Source: Veillonellaceae bacterium DNF00626
Lineage (GTDB): Bacteria; Bacillota; Negativicutes; Veillonellales; Dialisteraceae
Direction of reading: 5' to 3'
Length of the DNA: 64,000 bases
Assembly: GCA_001553355.1 (NCBI GenBank)
Contig: KQ960853.1
Coordinates: 49,796 to 113,795 of the forward strand
Program-made: the position numbers and the translations under genes
Notes under the pieces: generated by a model
What the model was told of the DNA's origin: nothing
Seen by the model: the letters and a program-made list of their open reading frames with translations, nothing else
Database searches by the model: none
Shown: in pieces, positions 20,944-29,654 of the stretch
How the letters are laid out: the number at the start of each line of letters is the position of its first letter
Position numbering within the stretch: the stretch's first letter is position 1

Positions 20944-22236
20944 TTACGATTTCTTTTCTCTTTCCTTATCCAATAAATGTTTCAAACCTTTATCGGCTAT
21001 ATCATGTCTGTATTGCATGCCTTCCCACTGAATAACACTTGCACCATAATAGGCTTTTTCTTGTGCTTCTTTTAAGGTAGCAGCCACGCCTACGACATTA
21101 AGCACTCTACCACCATTAACGACATATTTCCCTTCTTTTTTCTTCGTTCCGCTATGAAATACGAGACACTCTTTTTCTGCCCATTTAATACCCCGTATTT
21201 TTTCTCCCGTACTATGTCCGATAGGATAACCGGCAGAAGCTAAAACGACATCAACGGCATAGCCTTCTTTCCATTGAAGGGTCGTTCCTTTCAATGTGCC
21301 TTTGGCACAGCTCATCATGATTTCGCCTAAATCACTTTCCAAAAGAGGTAGTATAGCTTCCGTTTCCGGATCACCAAAGCGACAATTAAATTCCACTACT
21401 TTAGGCCCATCTTTGGTCATCATAAGTCCGGTATAAAGGCAACCTTTAAATGGTACGCCTTCTTTTTTCATAGCTTCCATTACCGGATACAAAATAGTTT
21501 CCCTTATCGTTTTTCTTGTTTCTTCCGTAAGCAATACAGTAGGAGCATAAGCGCCCATACCGCCGGTATTTAATCCTTTGTCATCATCAAAGATACGTTT
21601 ATGATCTTGTGATGAAATCATAGGTATGATGGTTTCACCGTCAGCAAAACCTAAAACACTCAATTCTTCCCCTTCCATATATTCTTCAATAACGATACTT
21701 TCTCCGGCTTTTCCAAAAGCAGCCCCGCTAATCATAGCGTTCACTGTTTCAATAGCAGCTTTCTCTGTTTCCGCTATCACTACGCCTTTCCCACTTGCCA
21801 ATCCATCAGCTTTAATAACAATGGGATATTTTTTTTGTTGTTGAATATATGAAATAGCCTTTTCTCTATCCGTAAAAGTTTCATAATCCGCTGTCGGAAT
21901 ATGATATTTCTTCATCAAATTTTTAGCAAATTGTTTTGATCCTTCGATTTGTGCGGCCGCTTTAGATGGCCCAAAAAAGGTCAACCCTTCTTGTTCAAAT
22001 AAATCTGCTATCCCTTCCACCAATATATTTTCAGGCCCTGCCACAGTAAGGTCAATCTTCATCAATTTGGCAAAATCAATGATGTCTTCTGTTTTGTAAA
22101 GAGGTACGACATGAGCTATATCTGCCAAAGCATCACTTCCCGGGATAACATATACTTCTTCCACAGACGGGCTTTGTTTTAATTTCCATACTAAGGCATG
22201 CTCTCTGCCTCCACTACCCAGAACAAGTACTTTCAT
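20944..22236 (-). CDS. purD: Phosphoribosylamine--glycine ligase
   Basis: Second step of purine synthesis: ATP-dependent joining of glycine to phosphoribosylamine. The 430-residue ATP-grasp enzyme begins KVLVLGSGGREHALVWKL and contains KADGLASGKGVV and EFNCRFGDPETEAILPLL. It is the last gene of the pur operon, 11 bases after purH. No clear terminator is visible before the rplM promoter 40 bases downstream. Confidence 0.98.
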   Translation of the reverse strand: MKVLVLGSGGREHALVWKLKQSPSVEEVYVIPGSDALADIAHVVPLYKTEDIIDFAKLMKIDLTVAGPENILVEGIADLFEQEGLTFFGPSKAAAQIEGSKQFAKNLMKKYHIPTADYETFTDREKAISYIQQQKKYPIVIKADGLASGKGVVIAETEKAAIETVNAMISGAAFGKAGESIVIEEYMEGEELSVLGFADGETIIPMISSQDHKRIFDDDKGLNTGGMGAYAPTVLLTEETRKTIRETILYPVMEAMKKEGVPFKGCLYTGLMMTKDGPKVVEFNCRFGDPETEAILPLLESDLGEIMMSCAKGTLKGTTLQWKEGYAVDVVLASAGYPIGHSTGEKIRGIKWAEKECLVFHSGTKKKEGKYVVNGGRVLNVVGVAATLKEAQEKAYYGASVIQWEGMQYRHDIADKGLKHLLDKEREKKS

Positions 22237-22247
22237 TTCATCTCTCC

Positions 22248-23783
22248 TTAACTATGTTTAAAATGACGATGACCGGTAAATATCATCGCAATACCATATT
22301 TATTCGCCATATCTATGGATTCTTGATCACGAATAGATCCGCCGGGCTGAATAACAGCAGTAATTCCTGCTTTTCCCGCTGCTTCTATAGTATCACCAAA
22401 GGGAAAGAATGCGTCAGAACTCATCACTGCGCCATGACATTTTTCTCCTGCTTCGGCGATAGCAATTTCTGCTGCGCCCACACGATTCATTTGTCCGGCA
22501 CCTACGCCATAAGTCACTTTTTCTCCGGTAAGTACGATAGCATTTGACTTCACATGTTTCACTACTTTCCACGCAAATGCCAACGCTTTCCATTCTTCTT
22601 CTGTCGGCTGCCTTTTCGTGACACAAGTCCAATCATTTTTGGTCTCTATTATATCATCAGCCGTTTGTATTAACAGCCCTCCGGAAATTTTATGAAGTTG
22701 CCATTCCTTTTCTTCCGTAGGTTTCACTTCAATAAGACGAATATTCTTTTTTTCTGACAACAACGCCAACGCATCTTCCGTAAATGACGGAGCAATAATA
22801 ACCTCAAAGAAAATAGGCTTCATTTTTTCTGCTGCAGCCTTATCGCAAGGACGATTCATAGCGACAATACCGCCAAAAGCAGATTTGCTATCAGCTTCAA
22901 ATGCTCGTGTAAAAGCATCTTCCGCATTTTCTCCAAGAGCCACCCCGCAAGGATTAGTGTGCTTTACGATAACGCAAGCTGCTTCATCTTTCCACTCCTG
23001 CACCAAATTCCAGGCTGCTTCCATATCCACGATATTGTTATATGACAATTCCTTCCCATGCAGTTGTTTCGCTCCTGCCATGCCCCCCGACATTTGTGAA
23101 TTAGTATAAAAAGCCGCTTTTTGATGAGGATTTTCTCCATATCTAAGGTCTTGTTTCTTTATATAAGATGGTGAAAATATAGAGGGGAATAAATCACCAT
23201 CTATTTCTTTGGATAAATAATTCGCAATAGCACTATCGTAAATAGCAGTATGTAAAAAGGCTTTTTGCGCTAGAGATAAACGAAATTCTTCTGTCAAGGT
23301 ATTTCCTTCTATACGGGCAATAATATCATCATATTGTGTAGGATCTACCACGACAGTGACATATTTATAATTTTTGGCTCCTGCACGTATCATTGAAGGT
23401 CCCCCGATATCTATATTTTCGATAGCCTCTTCTCGTGTCACATTTGGTTTTTTTATGGTTTCTTGGAAAGGATATAAATTCACCACTACTAAGTCAATAC
23501 CGATGATTCCATTTTCTTCCATCGCTTTTAAATGACCGGGATTATCTCGCAATGCCAATATGCCGCCATGAATTTTAGGATGTAACGTTTTCACTCTACC
23601 ATCCATCATCTCCGGAAAACCGGTTACATCTGATACCGGTATGACTGAAATACCTGCGTCTTTTAACGCTCTAAATGTACCGCCGGTAGAAATAATATCT
23701 ATACCGTTTTTTTCTAATTTTTTCGCAAATTCGACAATGCCCGTTTTATCTGAAACGCTGATCAATGCTCTTTTAATCGTCAT
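22248..23783 (-). CDS. purH: Bifunctional AICAR transformylase / IMP cyclohydrolase
   Basis: Last two steps to IMP, using 10-formyl-THF. The 511 residues comprise an N-terminal cyclohydrolase ([33 protein letters not shown]) and a C-terminal transformylase ([24 protein letters not shown], ending [10 protein letters not shown]). It overlaps the end of purN by 11 bases. Confidence 0.98.
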
Positions 23784-24396
23784 TTTTCTCCTCCTTATTT
23801 ATCCCTATGACTTGCCGGCCTTTCATTTCCAGTCGATCCTCACAAAAGGCTTTCACTGCCTTGACGTAAATTTTATGTTCCTCTTTCAATATCCGTTGGG
23901 ATAAAGTGTCTTCCGTATCATTATCATAAACAGGTACAGCCGCTTGAATGATAATCGGGCCATCATCAAGCCCGGTACCCACAAAATGTACCGTACAGCC
24001 CGATATTTTCACACCGGCTTCGATGGCTTGCCGCTGTGCATGAAGTCCCTTAAATGACGGGAGAAGCGCCGGATGTATATTTACGATTTGATTAGGATAA
24101 GCATTCACTAAAGTTTCATCACAAATTCTCATGTACCCGGCCAAGCAAATAAGATCGGGATGATAACTTTTTACCGCTTTTAATATTTCTTTATGATAAG
24201 TTTCCTTATCTTTCATTTCAATGACCACTGTCGGTACTTGCCATTCTGCCGCCCGTTTTAAAATTTGAGCATTTTGATGATCACAAATAACCGCTACCAA
24301 TGTCCCTTGAATATCCCCGGCTTGCATAGCATCATAGAGAGCAGCTGCATTACTTCCTCTCCCGGACGCGAAAATGACGATACGTTTTTTATTCAT
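23773..24396 (-). CDS. purN: Phosphoribosylglycinamide formyltransferase
   Basis: Formyl-THF-dependent third step of the pathway. The start is taken at the ATG at 24396, 8 bases after AGGTGG and overlapping the purM stop; an in-frame GTG at 24408 would sit in that SD. 207 residues. Diagnostic are [41 protein letters not shown] and [19 protein letters not shown]. The tail EEKNDD is short and acidic. Confidence 0.97.
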
Positions 24397-25441
24397 GAAA
24401 TAGCCCACCTGTAATCGTTACTTCTTTTTTACCCTTCGTCACATATCCGATACGGTAAATTTTTTCTCCCTGCTCACTCAATATATCCATAGCCTTATCT
24501 GCATCTTCTTGATTCAAAATAAGAAGCATTCCTATCCCGCAATTAAAAGTACGATACATTTCATGAGCATCTATATTTCCTTCCTTCTTCAAAAAAGGAA
24601 ATATAGGAAGCACGGGCCAACTGTCACCATCAATCACAACCGCTGTCCCTTCCGGCAAAATGCGCGGTATATTTTCATAAAATCCGCCGCCGGTAATATG
24701 CACCATGCCCTTAATGTCTATATGCGAAAGAAGCGGCAATACAACTTTCGGATAAAGCCTGGTAGGTGTCAAAAGAACTTCTCCTAAAGATTTATCAAAA
24801 TCAGGATACACCTTTTTCAAATCCCAATGATTTTCTTTTGCCAATTTCCTCACCAAAGAATACCCATTGGAATGAATACCCGTAGAGGGAATACCCAAAA
24901 TAACATCACCCTCGGAGATCGTCTCACCGGTAATCAATTTTTTTCTGTCCACAATACCTACGGCAAACCCTGCTACATCATAGTCTCCTTCTTGATAAAA
25001 GCCTGCCATTTCTGCCGTTTCTCCACCTAAAAGTGCACACCCTGATTCTTTGCATGCATTTGCAACACCTTTAACAATATCCGCCATAAGTTTCGGCTCT
25101 AACTTCCCGGTAGCAATATAATCCAAGAAAAATAAAGGCTTTGCTCCCTGCACCAACACATCATTGACACTCATCGCAACACAATCTTGTCCAATCGTGT
25201 CATGAATACCCAAATCAATAGCTAAGCGCAATTTCGTTCCTACGCCATCAGTACCCGAAACTAAAACCGGTTCATCCGACCATTCTTGTTTTAATGAAAA
25301 AAGACCGCCAAACCCACCTAAATCACCTAAAACTCCGTCAATATATGTTTCCTTTACACTTTCTTTAATTAATTCTACTTCTTTTGCACCGGCATCAATA
25401 TCCACACCGGCTTCTTTATATGTCCAACTTTTTTTCGTCAT
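24389..25441 (-). CDS. purM: Phosphoribosylformylglycinamidine cyclo-ligase
   Basis: AIR synthetase, fifth step of the pathway. The chosen ATG at 25441 lies one base after the purF stop, with GAGG 6 bases upstream; the in-frame GTG at 25453 would overlap purF. 350 residues. Landmarks are TYKEAGVDIDAG, VSGTDGVGTKLRLAIDLG, MSVNDVLVQGAKPLFFLDY, ALLGGETAEMAGFY and HITGGGFYENIPR. Confidence 0.97.
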   Translation of the reverse strand: MTKKSWTYKEAGVDIDAGAKEVELIKESVKETYIDGVLGDLGGFGGLFSLKQEWSDEPVLVSGTDGVGTKLRLAIDLGIHDTIGQDCVAMSVNDVLVQGAKPLFFLDYIATGKLEPKLMADIVKGVANACKESGCALLGGETAEMAGFYQEGDYDVAGFAVGIVDRKKLITGETISEGDVILGIPSTGIHSNGYSLVRKLAKENHWDLKKVYPDFDKSLGEVLLTPTRLYPKVVLPLLSHIDIKGMVHITGGGFYENIPRILPEGTAVVIDGDSWPVLPIFPFLKKEGNIDAHEMYRTFNCGIGMLLILNQEDADKAMDILSEQGEKIYRIGYVTKGKKEVTITGGLFHE

Positions 25442-25442
25442 T

Positions 25443-26876
25443 TTAGCCCTCACTCACTGATTCATTTCCCGCCAAAGGAACAGATTCCGGATAATCTCCG
25501 TCAAAACAAGCGAAACACATATTTTCCTTCGGTAAAGAAGAAATCGCTCGTGCCAATCCGTCTTGTGACAAATAATGCAAACTATCAGCGCCGATAAGCT
25601 TACATATTTCCTTTTCACTATGTCGAACAGCAATAAGTTGCTTTCGTGCTGCCGTATCAATTCCAAAAAAGCAAGGATATTTTACCGGCGGTGAACTGAT
25701 GCATAAATGAATTTCCTTCGCTCCGGCACGACGAAGAAGCCCAATGATAATTCCACTGGTAGTCCCTCGTACGATAGAATCATCAATTAAAATAATCTTC
25801 TTCCCTTTTACATTAGATAAAATAGGATTTAATTTCATTCGTACGGCTTGTTCCCTCTTCTTTTGCCCCGGTTTAATAAACGTACGACCCATATATTTAT
25901 TTTTCAAAAGCCCCTCCACATAGGGAATACCTGATGCCTGAGCATAACCCAAAGCTGCCACATTCCCCGAGTCAGGTACACTCATGACTACATCGGCATT
26001 GAAATTCGTTTCTCTCCAAAGTTCTTTCCCCATTTGCAAACGAGCTTTATAAATATCCTGTCCATTCATGATTGAATCCGGACGAGCAAAATAAATATAT
26101 TCAAAAACGCACATACCTAAACGCGGCACAGTCCGTCGACACATCATGGAATGCACTCCGGTATCATCAATACGAATGATTTCACCCGGCTTGATATCTC
26201 TTATAAAAGTAGCATCAATAGAATCTAACGCCACTGTTTCTGAACAAACCACAAAACCCGTCTCAGTCTGTCCTAAAACCAAAGGACGATAACCAAACGG
26301 ATCCCTAAAGGCATACAACGCTTCATTCGTACAAACTACCACAGAATAAGCACCTCGAAGTTTATCCATTACTTCATTAATGCGTTCTTCCATATTTCTT
26401 CCCTGCGCTTGTGCCAACATCTTGACAATAACTTCTGTATCCATTGTCGTCTGGAAAGTAGAACCTTTGGCCAAAAAAGCATCGCGCAAATCTTTTGTAT
26501 TCACTAAATTTCCATTATGCGCCAACGCCACAGGCCCATCGGCGTCCACCACCTGAAGGGGTTGGACGTTACAAGAAATAGATGACCCGGTCGTGCTGTA
26601 ACGCACATGCCCGATACCGATATGCCCTTCTTTATCCGGCAATTCATGAAAAACCTCTGTCACAAGTCCCATACCACGGAAAGTTTCCATCGTATGTCCA
26701 TCACTTACCGTGATACCTGCACTTTCCTGCCCTCGATGCTGGAGAGAAAAAATACCATAAAACGTTTCCTCCAATGCCGAGCAATTTCTATCAAAAATGC
26801 CGAATACACCACACTCCTCATGCAGTTTATCATCATCTATAAAATCTTGGCTCACTCTCTTCATTTTCCTTTTCAC
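25443..26876 (-). CDS. purF: Amidophosphoribosyltransferase
   Basis: First committed step: PRPP plus glutamine to phosphoribosylamine. 477 residues, starting with GTG at 26876, which has AAGGAG 9 bases upstream; a later ATG at 26864 is too close to its SD. The mature N-terminal nucleophile is the Cys in EECGVFGIF, after a propeptide of about 22 residues, as in Bacillus-type enzymes. The glutaminase part contains LQHRGQESAGI and GHVRYSTTG. The PRPP loop is LIDDSIVRGTTS. Four-cysteine iron-sulfur ligation typical of the Bacillus enzyme is plausible (C388-region and C-terminal CFACF). Confidence 0.97.
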   Translation of the reverse strand: MKRKMKRVSQDFIDDDKLHEECGVFGIFDRNCSALEETFYGIFSLQHRGQESAGITVSDGHTMETFRGMGLVTEVFHELPDKEGHIGIGHVRYSTTGSSISCNVQPLQVVDADGPVALAHNGNLVNTKDLRDAFLAKGSTFQTTMDTEVIVKMLAQAQGRNMEERINEVMDKLRGAYSVVVCTNEALYAFRDPFGYRPLVLGQTETGFVVCSETVALDSIDATFIRDIKPGEIIRIDDTGVHSMMCRRTVPRLGMCVFEYIYFARPDSIMNGQDIYKARLQMGKELWRETNFNADVVMSVPDSGNVAALGYAQASGIPYVEGLLKNKYMGRTFIKPGQKKREQAVRMKLNPILSNVKGKKIILIDDSIVRGTTSGIIIGLLRRAGAKEIHLCISSPPVKYPCFFGIDTAARKQLIAVRHSEKEICKLIGADSLHYLSQDGLARAISSLPKENMCFACFDGDYPESVPLAGNESVSEG

Positions 26877-26898: not shown

Positions 26899-27771
26899 TT
26901 AAGACTCCAAAAACTTTTTACCTGTTAATAATTCATACGCTTCTTCATATTTAGCCACAGTCTTAGAAATAATATCTTCCGGTAACGAATCTCCGGGATG
27001 CGCTTTCAGATAATCCCGTACAAACTGCTTATCATAAGACGGTTGACCTTGCCCCGGTGTATACCCCTTAAGCGGCCAGAACCGAGAATTATCCGGCGTG
27101 AGCATTTCATCAGCTAAAATAATATTTCCTTTTTCATCCAAGCCAAACTCAAATTTCGTATCAGCAATAATAATTCCCTTAGAAAATGCATAATCAGCAC
27201 ACTTCTTATAAAGTGCCAAAGTCAAATCCCGAAGAGCTTCCATATACTCTTTTCCCTTCCCCGGGAACGTACGATTGACCCACTCAATGCCTTCTTCCAT
27301 AGAAATATTCAAATCATGCTCCCCTACCGGCGCTTTTGTAGACGGCGTAAAAATCGCTTCCGGCAATCGATCACATTCAACCAATCCCTTCGGTAATTCA
27401 ATACCGCAAACCTTTCCATTTTCCTGATAACCTTCCCATCCCGAGCCGGTAATATAACCACGAACAATACACTCCACAGGAATCATAGTAAGCTTCATTG
27501 TTTTCATACTTCTACCGACAAACTCCGGTTTCTGAAAATATTCCGGCATATCTTTCGTATCAATAGAAATCATATGGTTCGGCACTACATCTTTAGTGAA
27601 ATCAAACCAAAATTCCGACATTTTATTTAATATTTCACCCTTTTTAGGAATGGGATTTTCCAAAATATTATCAAAAGCAGAAATGCGATCCGTAGATACA
27701 ATAATTAAACTATCCCCCAAATCATATAATTCCCGAACTTTACCGGACTTAAAAGGTACATATTCTTTCAT
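26899..27771 (-). CDS. purC: SAICAR synthase
   Basis: Joins aspartate to CAIR. The start is the ATG at 27771 with GGAGG 7 bases upstream; the in-frame codon at 27789 has none. 290 residues. Signatures are FKSGKVRELYDLGDSLIIVSTDRISAFD, VPVECIVRGYITGSGW-like text, and the C-terminal DEMLTPDNSRFWPL. The length is nearer to the eukaryotic/Actinobacterial-size form than to the 235-residue Bacillus form. Confidence 0.96.
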   Translation of the reverse strand: MKEYVPFKSGKVRELYDLGDSLIIVSTDRISAFDNILENPIPKKGEILNKMSEFWFDFTKDVVPNHMISIDTKDMPEYFQKPEFVGRSMKTMKLTMIPVECIVRGYITGSGWEGYQENGKVCGIELPKGLVECDRLPEAIFTPSTKAPVGEHDLNISMEEGIEWVNRTFPGKGKEYMEALRDLTLALYKKCADYAFSKGIIIADTKFEFGLDEKGNIILADEMLTPDNSRFWPLKGYTPGQGQPSYDKQFVRDYLKAHPGDSLPEDIISKTVAKYEEAYELLTGKKFLES

Positions 27772-27789
27772 GACAATTCCTCCCAACAA

Positions 27790-28281
27790 TTATTTTTTTA
27801 ATTCCTTTTGTAAATTTTCATCTTTACGATAAATTTCTTCTGCTGCTTCTTTTCTATAAGCTTGATACCGTTCATACAATGCCTGCTCTTTCACACCGCC
27901 TATTTCTATGGCTAAGTACGCTGCATTCTTCGCACCATCAATAGCCACCGTAGCAACAGGTATACCCGAAGGCATTTGCACGATGGAATAAAGCGCATCC
28001 ATGCCATCTAAATTTGCTCCCGACAGCGGAACACCTATCACCGGACGACAAGTAAGTGACGCTACCACTCCCGGCAAAGCTGCTGCCATTCCGGCTCCGG
28101 CGATAAAACAAGTAGCCCCCTTCTTCTCTTCATCCTGCACAAATCGCGCCAATTTTTCCGGCGTACGATGTGCCGATGCAATCGTAACATCAAAAGACAC
28201 ACCGACACCTTTCAATATGTCGCAAGCTTTTTTCATGATGGGAAAATCCGAATCACTTCCCATGACAATTCCTACATGCAT
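27790..28281 (-). CDS. purE: N5-carboxyaminoimidazole ribonucleotide mutase
   Basis: Class I PurE, converting N5-CAIR to CAIR; 163 residues. I use the ATG at 28281 (GGGGAGG, 5 bases upstream); an adjacent ATG at 28284 is possible. A farther in-frame codon at 28305 falls in the T-run of the leader terminator and is not credible. Motifs are GSDSDFPIMKKAC, ASAHRTPEKL and GAGMAAALPGVVASLT. First gene of the pur operon. Class I PurE usually needs PurK; none is in the window. Confidence 0.96.
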   Translation of the reverse strand: MHVGIVMGSDSDFPIMKKACDILKGVGVSFDVTIASAHRTPEKLARFVQDEEKKGATCFIAGAGMAAALPGVVASLTCRPVIGVPLSGANLDGMDALYSIVQMPSGIPVATVAIDGAKNAAYLAIEIGGVKEQALYERYQAYRKEAAEEIYRKDENLQKELKK

Positions 28282-28301
28282 CATAACCTCCCCTAAATTT
28301 A

Positions 28302-28346
28302 ACAAAAATAAAAGCCCTCTATTTGAAACACTTCAAACAGAAAGCT
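28302..28346 (-). terminator. Rho-independent terminator inside the pur leader (candidate attenuator)
   Basis: On the minus strand AGCTTTCT (28346-28339) pairs with AGAGGGCT (28320-28313) using G-T pairs, and TTTGAA pairs with TTCAAA inside it. The tail is TTTTATTTTTGTT. It lies between the promoter and purE, ending about 20 bases before the purE start, so it must be bypassed for expression of the operon. Confidence 0.75.
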
Positions 28347-28453
28347 CCATCTCCTTGGTTGCAAACACTCTGACTCTTCTTCCGGTACAAATAAAAAAGG
28401 GTACTCTGATTTTGTTTTATGCTGAAATAACCAAAATCAATTTCGCCCTTCAT
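28319..28453 (-). CDS. Candidate 44-residue leader peptide of the pur operon
   Basis: An ATG at 28453 with GGGGG 5 bases upstream opens 44 codons ending in TAG at 28319-28321. The stop lies in the terminator hairpin, so a ribosome finishing this frame would cover the 3' arm. The peptide starts MKGEIDFGYF, is basic in the middle (YRKK), and has three cysteines at 31, 39 and 42 in a C-x7-C-x2-C pattern. I know no family for it. The arrangement suggests translation-linked attenuation. It could still be a chance frame: conservation has not been tested. Confidence 0.45.
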   Translation of the reverse strand: MKGEIDFGYFSIKQNQSTLFYLYRKKSQSVCNQGDGAFCLKCFK

Positions 28454-28496
28454 TTGTTCCCCCGTAAATAAAATCATTTGTCTGACGACTGATTAC

Positions 28497-28525
28497 AGTT
28501 TAGTATAAAAATATATGCTTGTCAA
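28497..28525 (-). promoter_or_regulatory. Promoter of the pur operon
   Basis: TTGACA at 28525-28520 and TAAACT at 28502-28497 with a 17-base spacer on the minus strand. The -35 is perfect and the -10 is 4 of 6. Confidence 0.75.
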
Positions 28526-28664
28526 ACGATAAAAGTCTCGAAAAAATACGATTTTATCAACTATTTTTAATTGTAATTCTTTTTTCATATTTGATTGAGA
28601 AAAAATAAATCATTATTAATAATTAAAGTTCCATTTTATTTTCTATTGATTCCGAAAAACCTAT

Positions 28665-29654
28665 TTACTTCTTCTCAATCATGCCTTCCATTAATTCATA
28701 GTCACTAAGCACCCGATTAAATTCCTCCTCAGTAAGAGCTTTCATGATTTGCCCTCGAAGTATCGTTGCCTTTGGAAGCCCATGAAAATAATGAGCCGCA
28801 TGAGCACGCATTTCGCGGATGCCGATATACTCTCCCTTTTCCCGACACAACTCATGAAGATGATAACGCACCATATCAAGACGCATTGCACCGGTAGGTT
28901 TCTCTATTTCCTCACCCGTTCGTAAATACTCATTCACTTCCCGAAATATCCAAGGATTTCCCCACGCTGCTCGACCGATAGCCACCGCCGCGCATCCGGT
29001 TTCCTCCATCATTTGCTTCGCTGACGGTCCATCCACCACATCACCATTTCCGATAACCGGAATATGCAATGCATTCACTACTTGAGAAATAGCCTTCCAA
29101 TCAGCTTTTCCTGCATACATATCATCACGCGTTCTTCCATGCACAGTCACCGCCATAGCACCGGCCTCTTCCACAGCCTGTGCCAATTCCACCGCATTCA
29201 TAGAAGCATGATCCCAACCTAACCGCATTTTCACCGTTACCGGAATATGCACCGCTTGCGCCATAGCACGTACAATATCTGCTGCCAAAGAAATATTTTT
29301 CATCAACGCCGACCCATCACCGTTCTTCACTACCTTCTGCATAGGGCAGCCCATATTAATATCTACCATATCTGCACCGGCCGCTTCCATTCGTTTCGCC
29401 CCCAATGCCATGATTGACGGATCAGAACCAAAAATCTGAAGAGCCACCGGATGCTCTTTCTCATTAATAACGATCATTTCCTTTGTCTTTTCATTTTCAT
29501 AATACAATCCCTTAGCAGACACCATTTCCGCCACTGTAAGCGACGCCCCCATACGCCGTGCCAACACACGATACGTCGCATCACTCACTCCTGCCATAGG
29601 TGCTAAAAACGCCCAACCATCAAAAGTAATATTTCCTATCTTCGGATATTTCAT
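28665..29654 (-). CDS. dusB: tRNA-dihydrouridine synthase
   Basis: FMN enzyme reducing uridines in the tRNA D-loop with NADPH. The ATG at 29654 has GAGG 7 bases upstream; the ATG at 29660 abuts the SD. 329 residues. Motifs are LAPMAGVSDATYRVLARRMG, ALQIFGSD, the catalytic-Cys segment DINMGCPMQKVVKNGDGSALM, VTVHGRTRDDMYAGKADW and IPVIGNGDV. It resembles DusB, the usual single Firmicute Dus. Monocistronic. Confidence 0.94.
   Translation of the reverse strand: MKYPKIGNITFDGWAFLAPMAGVSDATYRVLARRMGASLTVAEMVSAKGLYYENEKTKEMIVINEKEHPVALQIFGSDPSIMALGAKRMEAAGADMVDINMGCPMQKVVKNGDGSALMKNISLAADIVRAMAQAVHIPVTVKMRLGWDHASMNAVELAQAVEEAGAMAVTVHGRTRDDMYAGKADWKAISQVVNALHIPVIGNGDVVDGPSAKQMMEETGCAAVAIGRAAWGNPWIFREVNEYLRTGEEIEKPTGAMRLDMVRYHLHELCREKGEYIGIREMRAHAAHYFHGLPKATILRGQIMKALTEEEFNRVLSDYELMEGMIEKK

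Follow-up and report, generated by a model that had tools for sequence, protein, structure and literature searches.

A purE leader that is probably a translation-coupled attenuator of purine synthesis in one order of Negativicutes

How is purine synthesis adjusted in bacteria whose genomes hold no recognised regulator of the pathway? In Firmicutes, pur operons are known to be governed by the purine riboswitch, by PurR and by the ZTP and PRPP riboswitches. PurR and riboswitches are likewise the pur operon controls named in the accessible part of a published account (PMC13328217). The question is raised by a complete purine operon, purECFMNHD, which lies on the minus strand (28281-20944), behind dusB, in a 64,000-nucleotide stretch of contig KQ960853.1 of Veillonellaceae bacterium DNF00626; this whole stretch is referred to here as the window.

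The layout that a first-pass annotation had noted upstream of purE, namely a promoter, a frame led by a Shine-Dalgarno (SD) sequence and an intrinsic terminator whose hairpin contains the stop codon of that frame, is real, and the coordinates assigned to it proved correct in the window (Table 1). A scan of 501 bases gave three promoter-like sites against 1.7 expected; the pur promoter occupies the same position in the leaders of relatives, and the predicted transcript start of the operon lies near 28490. Counted from where the 5' arm of the terminator hairpin begins, the stop codon of the frame comes 29 nt later, within the 3' arm. A terminator with a T-rich tail is found once in the window leader against 0.1 expected from shuffles, and purE starts about 17-20 nt past the T tract, so that there is no space for a second promoter between the two. 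Taken alone the window frame is weak, with 28.5% of dinucleotide shuffles of the leader yielding a frame that passes the same rule (given below), and it stands above chance because it is present in relatives; the window leader sequence itself has no close relative among the compared genomes. Without its terminator the leader folds better than shuffles (z -2.38; 6 of 200 shuffles equally stable). The predicted hairpin around the start codon is, as an SD-sequestering stem, not above chance in the window leader (z -0.28).

Table 1. Features of the purE leader and the pur operon in the window (positions counted from the first letter of the window)
Feature	Position	Strand	Detail
Predicted pur operon promoter, sigma-70-type, TTGACA-17-TAAACT	28497..28525	-	10/12 matches
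SD-like GGGGG, 5 nt upstream of leader ATG	28459..28463	-	anti-SD duplex -8.6 kcal/mol
Predicted hairpin pairing the leader start codon region (28458-28446) with 28401-28387	28387..28458	-	
Leader ORF, 44 codons + TAG	28319..28453	-	ATG 28453, TAG 28321-28319
Predicted intrinsic terminator stem-loop (attenuator)	28311..28348	-	17 pairs, loop 4, -18.5 kcal/mol
Terminator T-rich tract	28302..28310	-	
purE, first operon gene	27790..28281	-	TIGR01162 over cut-off; alternative ATG 28284
purC	26899..27789	-	TIGR00081 over cut-off
purF	25443..26876	-	TIGR01134 over cut-off
purM	24389..25453	-	TIGR00878 over cut-off
purN	23773..24408	-	TIGR00639 over cut-off
purH	22248..23783	-	TIGR00355 over cut-off
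purD	20944..22236	-	TIGR00877 over cut-off

The genes upstream of the leader vary among relatives (Dus, YebC, tetrapyrrole methylase, dihydroorotate dehydrogenase, UvrD, a glutamate dehydrogenase-type gene or an ABC ATPase), so the leader unit belongs to purE. Its distribution was followed in 61 genomes of the order, 54 of which encode PurE. Groups carry arbitrary labels (f1-f35, g1-g97), for which the family names Dialisteraceae, Megasphaeraceae, Veillonellaceae and Acidaminococcaceae are our guesses, f18 being presumably Acidaminococcaceae-like. The promoter, the SD-led frame and the terminator precede purE in 38 of the 54 genomes, comprising five of the six from the window's genus, both of g2, all 16 of f2, the one of g10 and all 14 of g12; two of these leaders (L010, L015) have weak promoters. 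The unit is absent from the other 16, that is, from G002 in the window's genus, four g3/g4 genomes, four of f3 and seven of g13, and in eight of these (the four of g3/g4 and the four of f3) reading of the sequence places a permease-like gene before purE. In g3/g4 (L065-L068), which belong to the window's own family, the permease-purE unit is preceded by a promoter and a hairpin with a T-rich tail, with no leader frame; this hairpin resembles the first of the two hairpins that are described below for g1.

For a test of the frame, 37 leaders were chosen by eye from 53 upstream regions and a fixed rule was applied afterwards (a frame of 15 codons or more, led by an SD whose duplex energy is -6 kcal/mol or better, with a stop that precedes the hairpin by 25 nt at most), with seven boundaries set by hand (the promoters of L052, L055, L059 and L062 and the terminators of L005, L038 and L058). 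All 37 leaders pass, compared with 4.3 expected from dinucleotide shuffles. At 70% identity they form 18 clusters, of which 2.8 would be expected to pass when the highest chance rate within each cluster is used. G017 was added after this test and passes in a script that uses no hand-set boundaries. Across the 54 genomes this script recognises a terminator in 37 purE leaders and the frame in 35 of them, having picked another promoter or hairpin in the two that have a terminator without the frame (L015, L038); 7 of the 54 give no terminator, and 10, L010 included, no promoter scoring at least 9.

The wider class sample of 300 genomes provided, outside the order, 40 upstream regions (39 usable) and 30 f18 loci (28 with a promoter); two distant loci from a class-wide protein scan of named genomes were left out of the counts. 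The same script finds a terminator before purE in 20 of the 28 f18 leaders and in 7 of the 39 others, and the frame in one of these 27 terminator-bearing leaders (f18 0/20, other class members 1/7). The f18 terminators (L109-L138; e.g., L122, L120, L125, L138) are hairpins of 45-62 nt that come soon after the promoter and often show the pattern CCCGAGA-AGATTTT ... CTTGGG(C/T)TTTGTTTTTT. A search of 11 of these loci gave no Rfam match at E 0.1, and this leader type is possibly an undescribed purE RNA element.

Within the order, the stop codon lies between 7 nt before and 82 nt past the hairpin start in every one of the 37 leaders: in 14 it precedes the 5' arm by 3-7 nt, in 14 it is inside the hairpin and in 9 beyond it. 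The sequence is open from the start codon to the hairpin in the ORF frame of 23 leaders, as against 3 and 9 for the other two frames. The first-pass annotation had proposed that relatives be compared for conservation of the frame, expected to be rich in synonymous changes, and for covariation in the hairpin. The frame that reaches or enters the terminator is conserved across the order, so the lack of conservation that had been named as grounds against the reading is not what is found. Covariation was seen in the second family (alignment A1), whose terminator shows double changes in 9 of 12 pairs. The synonymous-rich conservation of the peptide was not borne out.

Leader peptides differ between genera, and a peptide search with that of the window returned one cluster, the window's own protein. 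Among seven close g12 sequences dN is 0.062 and dS 0.020, and purifying selection is not seen, although changes are few; the nine variable columns in codons 2-24 are spread 4, 2 and 3 over the codon positions. L030 and L032 are separated by a 1-nt indel within the frame, and L007 and L009 by a 2-nt indel near its end, and in each case both frames still reach the terminator or stop within it. In g1 the peptide may be weakly constrained, the ratio being 0.50 over 36 codons for L007 against L009 and 0.48-1.02 for the other pairs. It seems that the peptide produced is unimportant and that the presence of a ribosome at the right moment is what counts. The C-x7-C-x2-C pattern of the window peptide could point to a metal or redox sensor, which is unlikely because the three cysteines are not common to relatives, whose peptides lack the pattern when read by eye. 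Control codons of the trp or his type were likewise rejected, no residue being common across genera.

The search for known regulators was negative in the window's family. Rfam 15 gave three sub-threshold matches in 27500-29500, to eukaryotic snoRNA or lncRNA families or unrelated sRNA families, and no riboswitch, in agreement with the earlier statement that no purine, PRPP or ZTP riboswitch core was found; the leaders of ten relatives gave no Rfam match near the cut-off. A known riboswitch class was rejected in the light of this lack of any covariance-model match over the leader in the window and the ten relatives. In the window's family all 12 genomes lack PurR (PuR_N, PF09182) at the family cut-off. 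It exceeds the cut-off in 25 of the 61 genomes of the order, those of f3, g12 and g13, and is missing from the window's family, f2, g10 and g11. With at most 53 candidates scored per genome under strict filters, the purine riboswitch (RF00167) was found in none of the same 12 genomes and in 7 of the 61, all in g12. The leader is present in 24 of 29 PurE-bearing genomes without PurR and in 14 of 25 with it; its loss in f3 and g13 coincides with PurR, and g12 has both. Upstream of the promoter in PurR-bearing g12 and g13 genomes (L050-L063) are TTCGGAATATAACGAA-like inverted sequences, which we take to resemble the PurBox.

Several candidate triggers were compared among the leaders. Pairing of the SD region with a later part of the leader has a mean z of -1.22 over the 37 leaders, 9 of which fall below -1.64, the strongest being L038 (-4.76), L010 (-3.71), L027 (-3.00) and L044 (-2.92). 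A stem that sequesters the SD was rejected as a common feature, being clear in f2, g10 and L010 and not in the window. Purine runs are not enriched over the leaders (mean z 0.39) and U runs weakly so (mean z 0.71), while the U6 of the window leader is not above shuffles. Near the terminator, a raised G-10/Y-1/G+1 pause score is confined to g12 genomes; TGYG occurs in 18 of the 37 leaders where 11.3 are expected. Sensing of fMet or formyl-folate by way of initiation would be a further conceivable trigger. With no pause signal common to the leaders, a purine-rich or U-rich pause tract was also rejected as a common feature. In 13 of the 14 g12 leaders (L050-L053, L055-L063) the sequence just before the terminator carries GCTAT or GCTAC, followed a few nt on by GTGYG or GCGYG; this motif is kept despite differing peptides, and several examples fit the G-10/Y-1/G+1 consensus.

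Four g1 relatives (L006-L009) have a second hairpin with T6 (GGCTTGTGCA...GCGCAGGCTTTTTTATCTCA), about 30-65 nt past the predicted transcript start and upstream of the frame, which is nearly invariant among them, as in tandem attenuators; the window has a weak hairpin (-4.1 kcal/mol) at this position. The terminator 5' arm of the same four leaders (CTCCTCTT or CTCCTTTT) is anti-SD-like. As judged by eye, it may base-pair with the SD of its own leader, and read-through would then be favoured in the absence of a bound ribosome.

Sequence comparison thus establishes the predicted promoter, frame and terminator, their geometry, the conservation of the frame without its peptide and, in the window's family, the lack of a recognised purine regulator. 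The purE leader probably attenuates transcription by coupling it to translation, in the manner of E. coli PyrL, thereby controlling purine synthesis. Should a ribosome keep close enough to RNA polymerase, it would occlude the hairpin's 5' arm and allow transcription to proceed into purECFMNHD; were the ribosome to lag, or the frame to go untranslated, the hairpin would form and transcription would stop about 20 nt before purE. The most likely input would be the speed of RNA polymerase as set by NTP supply. When purine NTPs are short, the polymerase would slow, the ribosome would catch up and the purine genes would be transcribed, and when NTPs are ample the polymerase would outrun the ribosome and stop. 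Poor translation in itself would also lower purine synthesis via the same leader. In E. coli, according to the accessible part of one study, termination falls from about 90% to less than 10% when the distance of a stop codon upstream of a terminator is shortened from 28 to 5 bp, and a ribosome at a stop more than 27 nt before the terminator is without effect, leaving full termination (PMC4824070). Since their stops range from 7 nt before to 82 nt past the hairpin start, all 37 leaders would lie on the ribosome-sensitive side. We infer that the leader frame is translated and that termination occurs, and the same holds for the identity of the sensed signal, since no trigger common to the leaders was found.

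The likeness to pyrBI is close in design. There, too, a promoter is followed by an SD-led 44-codon frame that enters or crosses an intrinsic terminator just ahead of the first biosynthetic gene in a nucleotide-synthesis operon, with a peptide of no obvious importance, and leader transcription-translation coupling reports UTP (mechanism as given in the accessible parts of PMC5021804, PMC3641672 and PMC9291695; UTP, PMC3641672 and PMC5021804). Measured in the same way, E. coli K-12 pyrL has 44 codons, and its frame contains a terminator of -15.3 kcal/mol. Its stop lies 47 nt past the hairpin start and 27 nt beyond the hairpin, whereas the window frame ends inside the hairpin. The operons differ in pathway, pyrimidine there and purine here, with no sequence similarity; in addition, the leaders of the window and the order lack a shared U-run pause, and U runs in a purine operon would be unexplained. 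Salmonella mgtM, as described in the accessible part of PMC3641672, is alike in that leader transcription-translation coupling on a short ORF with a non-conserved peptide reports a purine nucleotide. However, high ATP raises expression there via alternative stem-loops, the opposite of the sign proposed here, and the frame of the purE leader stops at an intrinsic terminator that has a purine-synthesis operon immediately downstream. Control by the purine riboswitch (RF00167) or PurR (PF09182) differs in that neither has a match in the 12 genomes of the window's family and the leader has none in Rfam.

Other readings of the same elements must be weighed. It is conceivable, if unlikely, that the frame represents a small gene, ordinary or in decay, to which the terminator belongs, and that purE is expressed by constitutive, leaky read-through that is independent of the ribosome. 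The lack of peptide conservation between genera would fit, as would the stop 3-7 nt before the hairpin in 14 of the 37 leaders, which is where any small gene might end. However, the stop is inside or past the hairpin in the other 23, and a useless frame would not stay open in 18 sequence clusters through changing peptides and indels. The terminators before purE in other class members come without such a frame, and the window has no space for a promoter between terminator and purE. An attenuator in which the ribosome stalls at certain codons, or through its nascent peptide, is very improbable: leader peptides often act so in biosynthetic operons, and frame and terminator are rightly placed for it, but no codon, residue or motif is common across genera, the cysteine pattern of the window is missing from relatives, and the C-terminal residues change from one relative to another through frame shifts.

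The remaining alternatives concern the RNA. The same leader could sense translation initiation if its SD/start region paired with the end of the frame and this stem, by opening or closing, gated the loading of the ribosome. Pairing of the SD region is above shuffles on average over the 37 leaders and remains despite sequence differences in f2 and g10, yet it is not above chance in the window, L006, L007 or L009, RNAalifold on the f2 alignment finds the terminator only, and there is no Rfam match; we consider this reading improbable. An unrecognised riboswitch or protein-binding RNA that controls the terminator, with the frame incidental, has very little probability in our view. The stable fold of the window leader without its terminator would suit it, as would the extra hairpin and T tract upstream of the frame in g1 relatives. 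Against it, Rfam gave no match near cut-off in the window or the ten relatives, the window leader has no core in common with other leaders, and the conserved internal hairpin sequence of f2 is lost in L029, L046, L049 and L054, where frame and terminator remain.

The interpretation offered by the first-pass annotation is thus partly supported. It had suggested that the attenuator could be undescribed, and the literature searched, which left out most subscription journals, yielded no such purine leader; the accessible portions of two surveys of bacterial RNA motifs list no purE motif of this order (PMC8632094; PMC6429828). The principle, however, is the one at work in E. coli pyrBI, a system that the annotation did not name. 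Most likely, then, this is a known principle, PyrL-type coupling, in a new pathway, that of purines, and in a repressor-free setting. More tentatively, it is possible that purECFMNHD is controlled with neither repressor nor riboswitch and depends for its main purine feedback on the speed of polymerase on purine NTPs, as read by the timely or late arrival of the leader ribosome at the terminator, throughout the PurR-less families of the order, as the purine counterpart of pyrBI.

If the coupling is as proposed, gut and oral anaerobes of this order would tune purine synthesis by the progress of the ribosome relative to RNA polymerase on a short leader, and would do so where PurR is not found, extending pyrBI-type control to purines. 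The 38 natural leaders, with their changing peptides and fixed geometry, would then offer material with which to test what spacing of stop codon and terminator is important.
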